Below are positions 25,367 through 48,916 of a DNA stretch of 64,000 nt, in pieces. The stretch lies in the NCBI GenBank assembly GCA_030523305.1, contig JAUNIY010000001.1, positions 1 to 64,000 of the forward strand. Direction: 5' to 3'. The notes beneath the pieces were generated by a model. It was not told where the DNA came from. It was given only the letters and a program-made list of their open reading frames with translations, and searched no databases. Within the stretch, counting starts at the first letter, position 1. Each line of letters starts with the position of its first letter. The stretch comes from Eubacteriales bacterium. Lineage in GTDB: Bacteria > Bacillota > Clostridia > Oscillospirales > Butyricicoccaceae. The translations under genes and the position numbers were made by a program.

Positions 25367-26731
25367 ATGGTCGATGAAATGAAAGATATGCGTTCCTCCG
25401 TTATTGACAACCTATGCGATAACTTTAAACAAAATAACCTGATCCAGCCGAAAATGTTTGCCAAGTACGACGTAAAGCGCGGTCTGCGCAATGCGGACGG
25501 CACCGGTGTGCTGGCTGGTATTACCTGTGTATCCAACGTACACGGTTATATGGTAAACGAAGGTGAAGTTGAACCGATCGAAGGCCGTTTGACCTATCGC
25601 GGGCACAACCTGTATGACTTGCTGGACGGGTTTGATATGGAAGACCGCTTTGGTTTCCCGGAAACCTCCTATCTGTTGCTCTCCGGCTCCTTGCCCAACC
25701 AGCAGCAGCTCGATGCGTTCACCGATCTGCTTGCAGACGACTGCTCGCTCCCGGATGGCTTTACAGAGGATGTCATCATGCGCGCGCCGAGCCGCGACCT
25801 GATGAACAAGCTGGCGGTTTCTACGCTGGCCTTGTATTCCTATGACCCCAATCCGGATGATACCAGCCTGGAAAATATGGTACGCCAGGCAATCAGCCTG
25901 ATTGCGAAATTCCCGGTCATCATCTCCCATGCATACCAGGCAAAACGCCGGTATTTCGACAATGCGTCAATGTTCCTGCATATGCCGGACCGCAACTATA
26001 CCACGGCGGAAAATATCCTGAGCCTGATCCGTCCGGACGGCATGTTTACCCGCGAAGAGGCCATGCTGCTTGACCGCTGCCTGATTATCCATGCAGAGCA
26101 CGGCGGCGGCAACAACTCCGCGTTTACCACCCGCGTTGTCTCCTCTTCCGCTACCGATACCTATTCCGCTATCGCGGCTGCCATCGGCTCACTCAAAGGC
26201 CCGCGCCACGGCGGCGCCAATCTGCGCGTATGTCAGCAGTTTGACGAGATGAAAGCCAACATCTCCAACTGGGAAGATGAAGACGAAGTCCTGGATTACC
26301 TGTGCAAGATCATGAACAAGGAAGCTGGCGACGGCTCCGGCTTGATTTACGGCATGGGCCATGCGGTCTATACGCTGTCTGACCCGCGCGCCGTAGCGCT
26401 CAAAAATACTGCGCGCCCGCTGGCCGCAGAAAAGGGCTTCGAGCGTGAATTCAACCTGATTGAGCTGACCGAACGCCTTGCACCCGAAGCCTTTTACCGC
26501 GTGCGCGGCGAGCACAAAATCATGTGTGCCAATGTGGATATGTATTCCGGCCTGGTTTATCAGATGCTGGGAATTCCGCAGGAAATGTATACTCCGTTGT
26601 TCGCCACCGCCCGTATTGTCGGCTGGCTGGCGCACCGCATCGAGGAAGTCACCACCGGCGGCAAGATCATCCGCCCGGCATACAAGCCGATCATCTCCCG
26701 CTCCGGTTATACGCCGGTTGCCAATCGGTAA
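25367..26731 (+). CDS. Citrate synthase (citrate/2-methylcitrate synthase family)
   Basis: Condenses acetyl-CoA with oxaloacetate to citrate, feeding the oxidative branch to 2-oxoglutarate and glutamate. The 454-residue length is that of the long clostridial type with an N-terminal extension of about 50 residues. Motifs seen are IEGRLTYRGHNLYDLL near residue 65, the first active-site His in IIHAEHGGGNNSAFTTRVV near residue 243, GSLKGPRHGGAN near residue 278 (second His), and GMGHAVYTLSDPRA near residue 326 (third His region, with the catalytic Asp). The C-terminal Arg comes in VRGEHKIMCANVDMYSGLVYQMLGIP. The start ATG is 8 bases after GAGGTG. No aconitase or isocitrate dehydrogenase gene is adjacent. 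A 2-methylcitrate activity cannot be excluded. Confidence 0.93.
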   Translation: MVDEMKDMRSSVIDNLCDNFKQNNLIQPKMFAKYDVKRGLRNADGTGVLAGITCVSNVHGYMVNEGEVEPIEGRLTYRGHNLYDLLDGFDMEDRFGFPETSYLLLSGSLPNQQQLDAFTDLLADDCSLPDGFTEDVIMRAPSRDLMNKLAVSTLALYSYDPNPDDTSLENMVRQAISLIAKFPVIISHAYQAKRRYFDNASMFLHMPDRNYTTAENILSLIRPDGMFTREEAMLLDRCLIIHAEHGGGNNSAFTTRVVSSSATDTYSAIAAAIGSLKGPRHGGANLRVCQQFDEMKANISNWEDEDEVLDYLCKIMNKEAGDGSGLIYGMGHAVYTLSDPRAVALKNTARPLAAEKGFEREFNLIELTERLAPEAFYRVRGEHKIMCANVDMYSGLVYQMLGIPQEMYTPLFATARIVGWLAHRIEEVTTGGKIIRPAYKPIISRSGYTPVANR

Positions 26732-26761: not shown

Positions 26762-26797
26762 CGGCTCCCTCGTCGAAAGGACAGGGGAGCCGCTTTT
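26762..26797 (+). terminator. Terminator of citrate synthase
   Basis: CGGCTCCC and GGGAGCCG pair around a 14-base loop and are followed by CTTTTTGC. Confidence 0.85.
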
Positions 26798-26811
26798 TGC
26801 GCACAAACAGA

Positions 26812-26981
26812 AAAAAGCCGCCAGTGCATGAAGCACTGGCGGCCTGCATGTCGTGGAAGTTTGGGGGATGATAAGAACACAACATGCAAAATTGGGGATG
26901 ATATAAAGCACTATCTGGGGGATTGATCGTGCTTTAAACAAAATGGGATTTTGTTGGGCTCGATTGTCTCCAATCGAGCTT
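26812..26981 (-). ncRNA. Candidate small regulatory RNA with five hairpins and C-rich loops
   Basis: A strong promoter (26988-27017) and a strong terminator frame a transcript of about 170 bases with no ribosome site. Read on the minus strand it folds as: H1 GCTCGATTG-GAGA-CAATCGAGC (26958-26979, GNRA-type loop at the very 5' end); H2 AACAAAAT-CCC-ATTTTGTT (26937-26955); H3 AAAGCAC/GTGCTTT (26905-26935) exposing CAATCCCCCAG; a linker with CATCCCCAA; H4 GCATGTTGTG/CACGACATGC (26846-26887, ten pairs) exposing CATCCCCCAAA; and terminator H5 GCCGCCAGTGC/GCACTGGCGGC (26817-26843) with six U residues. Unpaired C-runs of this kind in Firmicute small RNAs (for example RsaE-like RNAs) pair with G-rich ribosome sites. 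The in-frame open stretch on this strand runs on into the antisense of citrate synthase and has no ribosome site, so I do not call a protein. Confidence 0.8.
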
Positions 26982-26987
26982 GTCATT

Positions 26988-27017
26988 ATTATAACCTATG
27001 GAAGAGCCAAAAGTCAA
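26988..27017 (-). promoter_or_regulatory. Promoter of the candidate small RNA
   Basis: TTGACT (27012-27017), an 18-base spacer and a perfect TATAAT (26988-26993) on the minus strand. The first hairpin of the RNA begins at 26979, right at the predicted start. Confidence 0.8.
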
Positions 27018-27086: not shown

Positions 27087-27812
27087 TTAGCCGTTTTGAT
27101 ACAGCCCCTCCGGGTCCACTGCTTCCTCTCCTTTGGTCACAGCCAGGTGTAAATGTACACCCTGCTCCTGCTCCAGCGGCATCGGGTCGCCCAACACGGC
27201 AATCTGACTTCCGCCGGATACATTGTCGCCTTCGGAAACTGCAATTTCATCCAATCCGGCATACCGGCTGGTCATATCCTGCGCATGACTGAGTACAACA
27301 TATTTGCCATAGATGGCGTCGTCTCCAACCTCCACAACCGTACCGGATGCGATGGCGCATACGGAGTCTCCTGCGTTTCCGCTGTAATCTGCCGCCTCAT
27401 GCGTCCGCCAGTCGCCGGTCGTCTCATCATAGGCAAGCGTATCGGCCGAAAAGGCACGCGATACCTCGCCCGTCATCGGCGGCGTAAAGGTGAGCGCAGC
27501 CGCAGCTTCTACTTCTTCCTCCGCAGCGGTTGTTTGTTCTGCCGGCTCTTCCTCCACCGGTTCCTCGGCTTCCTCTTCCTCGGTGGTATCCGGCGTGGTA
27601 TCCATCGCGGGAACCCGGTCGATGGTGTCCGACGCCGTTACGCTTTCATCCGCTTCATACAAGTAGCCATCCAGCGGATCCTGTTCCTCCGTAGAGGCCG
27701 GTGTGGCAAACAATACGTATGCCGCCACGGCAATTGCCAGCAGGCAGAGCATCAGGATCATGTAAAAGCCCTTTTCCTCTGACCACCATTGTGCCCCATT
27801 TGTTTTTTTCAT
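27087..27812 (-). CDS. M23 family peptidase, SpoIIQ-like
   Basis: A 241-residue bitopic membrane protein. One membrane helix occupies residues about 17-36, a long acidic Glu/Thr/Ala linker about 38-105, and a LytM/M23 domain about 110-235. The domain keeps the zinc ligands expected for an active endopeptidase: HEAAD (HxxxD) near residue 138 and HLHL (HxH) near residue 219. In clostridia SpoIIQ retains such residues, spans the forespore membrane and binds SpoIIIAH across the septum. Three points favour this assignment: architecture, closeness to spoIID, and a near-perfect forespore sigma-G/F promoter upstream. A vegetative M23 hydrolase is the alternative. The ATG is preceded by TTCAGGAGATGTTCAG. 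Confidence 0.82.
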   Translation of the reverse strand: MKKTNGAQWWSEEKGFYMILMLCLLAIAVAAYVLFATPASTEEQDPLDGYLYEADESVTASDTIDRVPAMDTTPDTTEEEEAEEPVEEEPAEQTTAAEEEVEAAAALTFTPPMTGEVSRAFSADTLAYDETTGDWRTHEAADYSGNAGDSVCAIASGTVVEVGDDAIYGKYVVLSHAQDMTSRYAGLDEIAVSEGDNVSGGSQIAVLGDPMPLEQEQGVHLHLAVTKGEEAVDPEGLYQNG

Positions 27813-47203: not shown

Positions 47204-48916
47204 TCAGAACAGGTAATATTTCTGTGTGAGCGGCAGCTCCTTCGCCGCCTCACAGGTTATGTCCTCTCCGTCAACGGTAACGCTATATGTCTCCGGATCT
47301 ACCTGTATATCGCCCGTGCGGTCGTTGAATTTCATGCTCTTCTTGCCTATCTTGCGGCAGTTTTCAACCGGCAGTACCGTTCTGTCCAGTCCCAGTCTCT
47401 CCTTGATGCCGTTTTCAGCCGCAGCCTTGGACACGAAGGTTATGCAGGTGTGCTTTCTCGCAAGGCCGTGCGCGCCGAACATATTGGTATATACCACCGG
47501 CTGCGGCGTCGGGATGGATGCGTTCGCATCGCCCATCTTGGATGCCGTGATAAAGCCGCCCTTGATGATCATCTCCGGCTTTACGCCGAACATCGCCGGC
47601 TTCCACAGCACGAGATCCGCAAATTTGCCTGTCTCTACAGAACCGACATACTTTGCCAATCCATGGGTAATCGCAGGATTTATCGTGTACTTGGATATGT
47701 ATCGCTTTACGCGGAAATTGTCGTTTCTCGTGTTGTCCTCCGCGAGCGCGCCGCGCTGATCCTTCATCTTGGACGCAGTCTGCCATGTGCGGGTTATGAC
47801 CTCGCCAACTCGTCCCATCGCCTGGGAGTCAGAGCTCATCATGGAGAAGATACCCATGTCGTGCAGCACATCCTCGCTCGCTATGGTCTCCGGCCTGATT
47901 CGGGAATCTGCGAACGCCACGTCCTCCTTCACTTTCTTGTCCAGATGATGGCAGACCATGAGCATATCGAGATGCTCGTCTATCGTGTTCACCGTGAACG
48001 GCATGGTCGGGTTTGTAGATGACGGCAGGATGTTCGGGAAAGACGCTGCCCGAATGATATCCGGTGCATGTCCGCCGCCCGCCCCTTCGGTGTGGTAGGT
48101 ATGGATCGTTCTTCCGCCTATCGCGTTGATCGTGTCCTCCACGAAGCCCGCCTCGTTGAGCGTATCCGTGTGTATCGACACCTGGATGTCATACCGGTCA
48201 GCCACTTCGAGAGACCTGTTGATAACAGCCGGAGTAGCGCCCCAGTCCTCGTGTATCTTCAGGCCGCACGCGCCGGCTTCTACCTGCTCCGCAAGTGCGT
48301 CGTAGTTGGAACAGTTGCCCTTTCCGAGATATCCGAGGTTCATCGGGTAGTCCTCGGACGCCTCTATCATCTTCTCGATGTTGAATTTGCCCGGTGTGCA
48401 GGTCGTCGCGTTCGTTCCATCCGCAGGGCCTGTACCTCCGCCTATCATGGTGGTTATGCCGGAGTACAGCGCGGTCTCTATTTGCGTCGGGCTGATGAAG
48501 TGTATGTGCGTGTCGATGCCGCCCGCGGTGAGTATCAATCCCTCACCCGCTATTACCTCTGTGCCTGAGCCAACGATGAGCTCCTGCGAAACCCCGTCCA
48601 TGATGTCAGGATTGCCCGCCTTGCCTATGCCGCATATCTTTCCGTCCTTTATGCCAACATCCGCCTTGATGATTCCGGTATAGTCGATGATGACTGCATT
48701 GGTGATAACGGTATCCGGGCACGCGCTGTCCGGCACATTGCATGCCTGACCCATGCCATCGCGCAAGGATTTGCCGCCGCCGAATTTGGCTTCGTCGCCC
48801 TTGTACGTCAGGTCTTTCTCAACCTCTATGATGAGCGAGGTGTCCGCAAGACGTATTCTGTCACCCGTCGTCGCGCCGTACATATCGGCGTATTGCTTTC
48901 TGCTCATCTTAAACAT
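47204..48916 (-). CDS. ureC: Urease alpha (catalytic) subunit UreC
   Basis: UreC carries the di-nickel site that hydrolyses urea to ammonia and carbamate. The 570-residue length is standard and it begins [25 protein letters not shown]. Active-site elements are all present: DTHIHFISP (first His pair, near 136), [12 protein letters not shown] with the Lys that becomes carbamylated (near 220), the His in SIHTDTLNE and in [12 protein letters not shown] (near 250-280), the mobile-flap Cys/His in MVCHHLD (near 322) and the Asp in [22 protein letters not shown] (near 363). The ATG at 48916 overlaps the ureAB stop. Enzyme should be active given the full motif set. Confidence 0.98.

Follow-up and report, generated by a model that had tools for sequence, protein, structure and literature searches.

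What is transcribed, if anything, from the short region between a citrate synthase gene and a SpoIIQ-like gene on a contig of a Eubacteriales bacterium from the family Butyricicoccaceae? The stretch analyzed here, called the window, comprises positions 1 to 64,000 of contig JAUNIY010000001.1 (assembly GCA_030523305.1), and a first-pass annotation made from its letters alone had proposed that this region encodes a highly structured small RNA (sRNA) with several exposed runs of C. Comparison with related genomes indicates that the locus is a real, conserved RNA gene. The RNA is probably a genus-specific, noncoding, trans-acting sRNA that is expressed from its own promoter and would pair, via C-rich regions, with G-rich ribosome-binding sites.

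All elements of the feature map to the minus strand of the window, a point that the first-pass annotation did not state. The predicted sRNA, about 171 nucleotides (nt) long, occupies 26811..26981, with a 5' end near 26981 and a 3' end in a run of U residues at 26816-26811; its fold statistics and its homologues support this delimitation. Folded alone, it forms five consecutive hairpins at -69.1 kcal/mol, compared with -31 +/- 3.9 kcal/mol for 200 dinucleotide shuffles, none of which reached that value (z = -9.87; 0/200), and the proposed fold, including its 9-pair GNRA hairpin and 10-pair stem, was thus borne out. Hairpin 1 (26958..26979; 9 pairs) is capped by an invariant GAGA tetraloop of the GNRA type at 26970-26967, and hairpin 2 (26937..26955; 8 pairs) has a CCC loop at 26947-26945. 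Hairpin 3 (26904..26936; 8+3 pairs), with a nearly invariant stem sequence, presents AUCCCCCA in its loop, with the C-run CCCCC at 26921-26917. The nearly invariant linker that follows (26889..26903) contains AUCAUCCCCAA, with CCCC at 26897-26894, and hairpin 4 (26845..26888; 10 to 11 pairs) has a large loop with AUCAUCCCCCAAA, in which CCCCC at 26867-26863 is predicted to be unpaired. The intrinsic terminator (26811..26844) consists of a 12-pair stem, one pair longer than first described, a 5-nt loop, and the U6 tract as reported.

Most of what had been said about the C-runs stood. The CCCCC, CCCC, and CCCCC of hairpin 3, the linker, and hairpin 4 are invariant, and their predicted probability of being unpaired is 0.93 to 1.0 in all nine homologues (0.94 to 1.0 for the hairpin 3 run and 0.93 to 1.0 for the linker). 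The fourth run, in the loop of hairpin 2, did not hold up as a conserved element, being CCC in five of the nine copies and CC or UUU in the others. The terminator loop carries C4 to C5 in six of nine species, the window copy not among them. No unpaired run of three or more G residues is predicted in the sRNA copies.

Searches for homologues with BLAST and with a covariance model detected a single copy in each of 9 of the 12 genus genomes. In an alignment of these nine sequences, standard pairs make up 98.5% of pair cells. Stems lacking compensatory changes had been named in advance as evidence against the proposal; instead, 17 of 51 pairs changed on both sides, against 8.8 expected, and none of 500 shuffles reached 17. 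When the partners were slid by 1 to 3 columns, paired cells fell to 35 to 46% and only 1 to 7 pairs were changed on both sides. The covariation is concentrated in hairpin 1 (7/9 pairs with a compensatory change) and the terminator (8/13 pairs), where mean pairwise identities are 65% and 62%, respectively. Hairpin 2 is the least certain stem, with 91.7% of cells paired and one compensated pair. Hairpins 3 and 4 show almost no variation, and conservation is what supports them, along with a single compensation in hairpin 4, where genome G010 has C-G in place of U-A.

The central domain, made up of hairpin 3, the linker, and hairpin 4 (94 columns), shows 95.4% mean pairwise identity, with a minimum of 88.8%. 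Fourfold-degenerate sites of the neighboring M23 peptidase gene are only 41% identical (minimum, 27%), which is close to saturated. Because this identity and the invariance of the exposed C-runs persist against nearly saturated fourfold sites, the central domain appears to be under selection for its sequence and not for its shape alone. The first-pass annotation noted the absence of a ribosome site; no open reading frame (ORF) of at least 15 codons preceded by a Shine-Dalgarno sequence occurs in any of the nine copies, and insertions or deletions of 1 to 2 nt in the hairpin 4 loop and the linker break any shared frame. By these measures the sRNA is noncoding.

The promoter is as first described, TTGACT-18-TATAAT (26988..27017, minus strand; -35 box at 27017-27012 and -10 box at 26993-26988), an 11/12 match to consensus, with the predicted 5' end of the sRNA about 7 nt past it. 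The pattern TTGA[CG][TA]-17/18-TATAAT is kept at all 11 genus loci, that is, the nine long copies and two shorter forms from genomes G007 and G011. Pfam matches confirmed the neighboring genes as those of a citrate synthase and an M23 peptidase. Upstream and on the same strand is an M23 peptidase gene (27087..27812; Pfam PF01551), the conserved neighbor in the genus, and a Pfam search of neighboring proteins placed a SpoIID gene near it, which fits a putative SpoIIQ-like role of the M23 protein. The M23 gene lies immediately 5' of the sRNA on the same strand at 10 of 11 loci. At the remaining locus, in G006, about 2.7 kb and an ABC-transporter ATPase gene separate the two, and the sRNA promoter is retained. 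No separate terminator between the M23 gene and the sRNA is apparent in the sequence, and read-through from the M23 gene is therefore possible in addition to transcription from the sRNA's own promoter. The convergent citrate synthase gene (25367..26731, plus strand; Pfam PF00285) adjoins the sRNA in only some species. It has its own terminator at 26762-26798, and for that reason the sRNA is not antisense to it.

The distribution of the sRNA is sharply bounded. The first-pass annotation could not match it to a named family; a search of Rfam 15 likewise returned no family at the gathering score, and the best permissive match scored 17.4 bits, where the threshold is 70. The covariance model found nothing convincing in 75 other genomes of the family or in an order sample of 295 genomes; the searches over 40 genomes had strict filters that very diverged relatives could escape. 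The exact pattern GTGCTTTATATCATCCCC was found, in a collection of 84,980 species, only in genus members and in three sequences that appeared unrelated by eye, and had no match in viral contigs. Where genomes of other genera were read at the M23 locus, a plain terminator mostly follows the M23 gene, with no such RNA. No candidate for a paralogue held up in the sequence of G010. G007 and G011 carry the shorter relative at the same location, its local alignment score with the long form being reached by 0 to 6 of 500 shuffles, depending on the pair. These short forms retain the hairpin with the UCCCCC loop and a terminator with at least C5 in its loop, have lost most of hairpin 4 as well as the C-run of the linker, and have a -35 box that overlaps the M23 stop codon. 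G004, the third genus genome without the long sRNA, also yielded no M23 gene. Taken with its structure, the sRNA is well supported by these searches as a new, genus-restricted RNA family of a known general kind.

Four covariance-model matches outside the genus (L034, L035, L046, and L047; E values of 0.01 to 0.04) were judged on reading to be chance or unrelated hairpins. One of them, L035 (G099:C46, near 14299), belongs to a different genus and contains the hairpin AAAGCACGGTCATCCCCCTTAGACCGTGCTTT, whose loop includes CATCCCCC. This hairpin apparently sits within a larger stem, where another CCCC is paired with GGGG, and perhaps represents a further structured RNA that has a comparable loop.

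How might such an RNA act? Transcription would begin at the sigma-A-type promoter and stop at the intrinsic terminator. The GNRA-capped hairpin 1 and the terminator would form protective ends, whose sequence could drift freely while pairing was kept. The exposed C-rich regions would then pair with G-rich Shine-Dalgarno regions of mRNAs and shut those mRNAs off, possibly with assistance from Hfq, whose gene is present in 9 of the 12 genus genomes. An own promoter and intrinsic terminator, as read from the sequence, and conserved single-stranded C-rich regions, exposed by prediction, are both features of the C-rich-loop class of Firmicutes sRNAs. Pairing between the C-rich regions and G-rich Shine-Dalgarno regions is the most likely mechanism, since the architecture matches that of IsrR, an iron-sparing sRNA of Staphylococcus in which the C-rich regions were tested experimentally. 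Of the three C-rich regions in IsrR, two lie in loops and the third borders a stem; the stems of IsrR are conserved in sequence with little covariation, particular targets needed individual C-rich regions for repression, and its authors raise possible protein contact as well (PMC9410917).

The sRNA described here resembles IsrR in placing two of its three C-rich regions in loops and the third against a stem, with the stems conserved in sequence, and also in its variable terminator and in exposed parts that are free of G stretches. It differs in its extra 5' GNRA hairpin, its lineage, and its neighbors, the synteny with the M23 gene being local to this genus; no sequence relation emerged via Rfam, although the isrR sequence itself was not compared, and no conserved Fur-like box was noticed upstream, where the sequences were read by eye only. 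A second point of comparison is FsrA of Bacillus subtilis, a C-rich motif of which binds Shine-Dalgarno sequences (PMC9410917). The architecture of the genus sRNA suggests the same use of C-rich motifs in an RNA that, unlike FsrA, has no Rfam match. The two also differ in size and in the number of C-regions. The RsaE/RoxS and LhrC-type sRNAs use C-rich, UCCC-type single-stranded seeds to pair with ribosome sites; the genus sRNA departs from them in its hairpin plan and in lacking an Rfam match at the gathering score. LhrC is multicopy, whereas the genus sRNA is single copy.

Several other explanations deserve weighing against repression by pairing. A chance fold or nonfunctional intergenic sequence found no supporting evidence and is refuted by the fold z score, the covariation reached by none of the shuffles, and the conservation at near-saturating divergence. 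Hardly more credible is that the RNA encodes a small peptide, as an mRNA or a dual-function RNA; short open stretches do occur in two of nine species, but the lack of any sizeable ORF with a ribosome site and the frame-disrupting indels speak against it. It is improbable, if rather less so, that the element acts mainly in cis, or forms the 3' end of the M23 transcript as a stable 3' untranslated region and terminator, its promoter being of little importance. Its position directly downstream of the M23 gene on the same strand at nearly every locus would suit such a role, as would the lack of another terminator ahead of it, the overlap of the -35 box with the M23 stop codon in the short forms, and the plain terminator found at the same place in most other genera read. 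A near-consensus promoter is nevertheless kept at every locus, including the one in G006 that is detached from the M23 gene, and the conservation of loops and linker goes far beyond what a terminator needs. The SpoIIQ-like neighbor points to no more than location or read-through. No result supported the role in stationary phase or sporulation offered by the first-pass annotation; it drew solely on that adjacency, and in G006 the sRNA is detached from the M23 gene with its promoter kept.

An unlikely alternative, though one given slightly more weight than a cis role, is that the RNA is a protein sponge, in which repeated AUCAUCCC(C)C motifs on fixed stems would bind an RNA-binding protein specific for C and titrate it, much as CsrB/RsmZ do with CsrA. 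CsrB and RsmZ display repeated similar motifs on hairpins, and the genus sRNA has repeated C-rich motifs, three to four near-identical and exposed in each RNA. The near-invariance of the central domain, stems included, is what would be expected of a protein-bound surface, and no conserved long mRNA complement was found. Against this, the motif is C-rich rather than GGA, no binding protein is known for it, and we know of no protein of such specificity, or of a sponge RNA titrating a protein through C sites, in Clostridia. Moreover, the linker C-run is lost in G007 and G011, and IsrR has equally sequence-invariant stems yet acts by mRNA pairing (PMC9410917).

The reading of the sRNA as a trans-acting repressor faces difficulties of its own. 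The invariant region covers about 94 columns including stems, more than short seeds need, and therefore leaves room for a bound protein. Across 2.25 Mb of G010, we scanned 1,888 gene starts, called by a simple gene finder with some starts wrong, for duplexes with the C-rich segments. Ribosome-site windows at or below -14 kcal/mol numbered 124 of 1,888, compared with 86 for reversed segments and 52 for internal windows; this excess is weak evidence, as any C-rich segment pairs better with G-rich ribosome sites. The seed that the first-pass annotation had offered as a predictor of targets led to no conserved exact long target: away from the sRNA locus, the exact 11-mer complement TGGGGGATGAT turns up roughly once in each genome, and conserved ribosome sites are not where it lies. 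The most extensive-looking site in G010, a long complement before a gene for a 199-amino-acid protein, is not retained in relatives. When this site and those of a Crp-like regulator, an exopolysaccharide protein, and NadB were tested for conservation, only the GGGGGAG of NadB was conserved, being present in the nadB leader in all 11 genus genomes in which nadB was found (L232-L242, around position 1485-1500). Yet nadB was hand-picked from about 60 candidates, the core pairing shared by the genomes amounts to only about 6 bp, and conservation is also seen at canonical ribosome sites, for example that of PotA. The nadA ribosome sites are not of the G5 type where readable. Two nadB genes from other genera, too few to mean much, gave one without GGGGGAG (G017) and one with GGGG (G021). 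As judged from these sequences, nadB is only a lead as a target, and there is no convincing conserved target.

Little seems to have been described of sRNAs in this group of butyrate-producing gut Clostridia, and a literature search with Agathobaculum and sRNA gave nothing relevant. An alignment, a structure, and covariance support are now available for an sRNA family whose distribution has sharp limits. That this sRNA shares the plan of IsrR while database searches reveal no homology suggests that placing several C-rich regions on stems of fixed sequence is a recurring solution among Firmicutes, a proposition that is testable.

Three further observations were made in the course of the searches. 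On the minus strand of G010 (C1, about 173283-176830), a GGGGGA ribosome site precedes each of three successive genes resembling CRISPR type III (Csm) genes, possibly by coincidence or operon habit. In G002, identical stretches surround TGGGGGATGATAGGATGATACATACATACATATCC at C10:51108 and C14:127194 (L112 and L116) and probably belong to a repeated element. Within the window itself, the only Rfam match was to RF02514, the 5' ureB sRNA (48472-48766, plus strand; 84.7 bits). This match lies opposite an ORF that reads as a urease alpha subunit (start 48916, minus strand) and may simply reflect conserved urease coding sequence.
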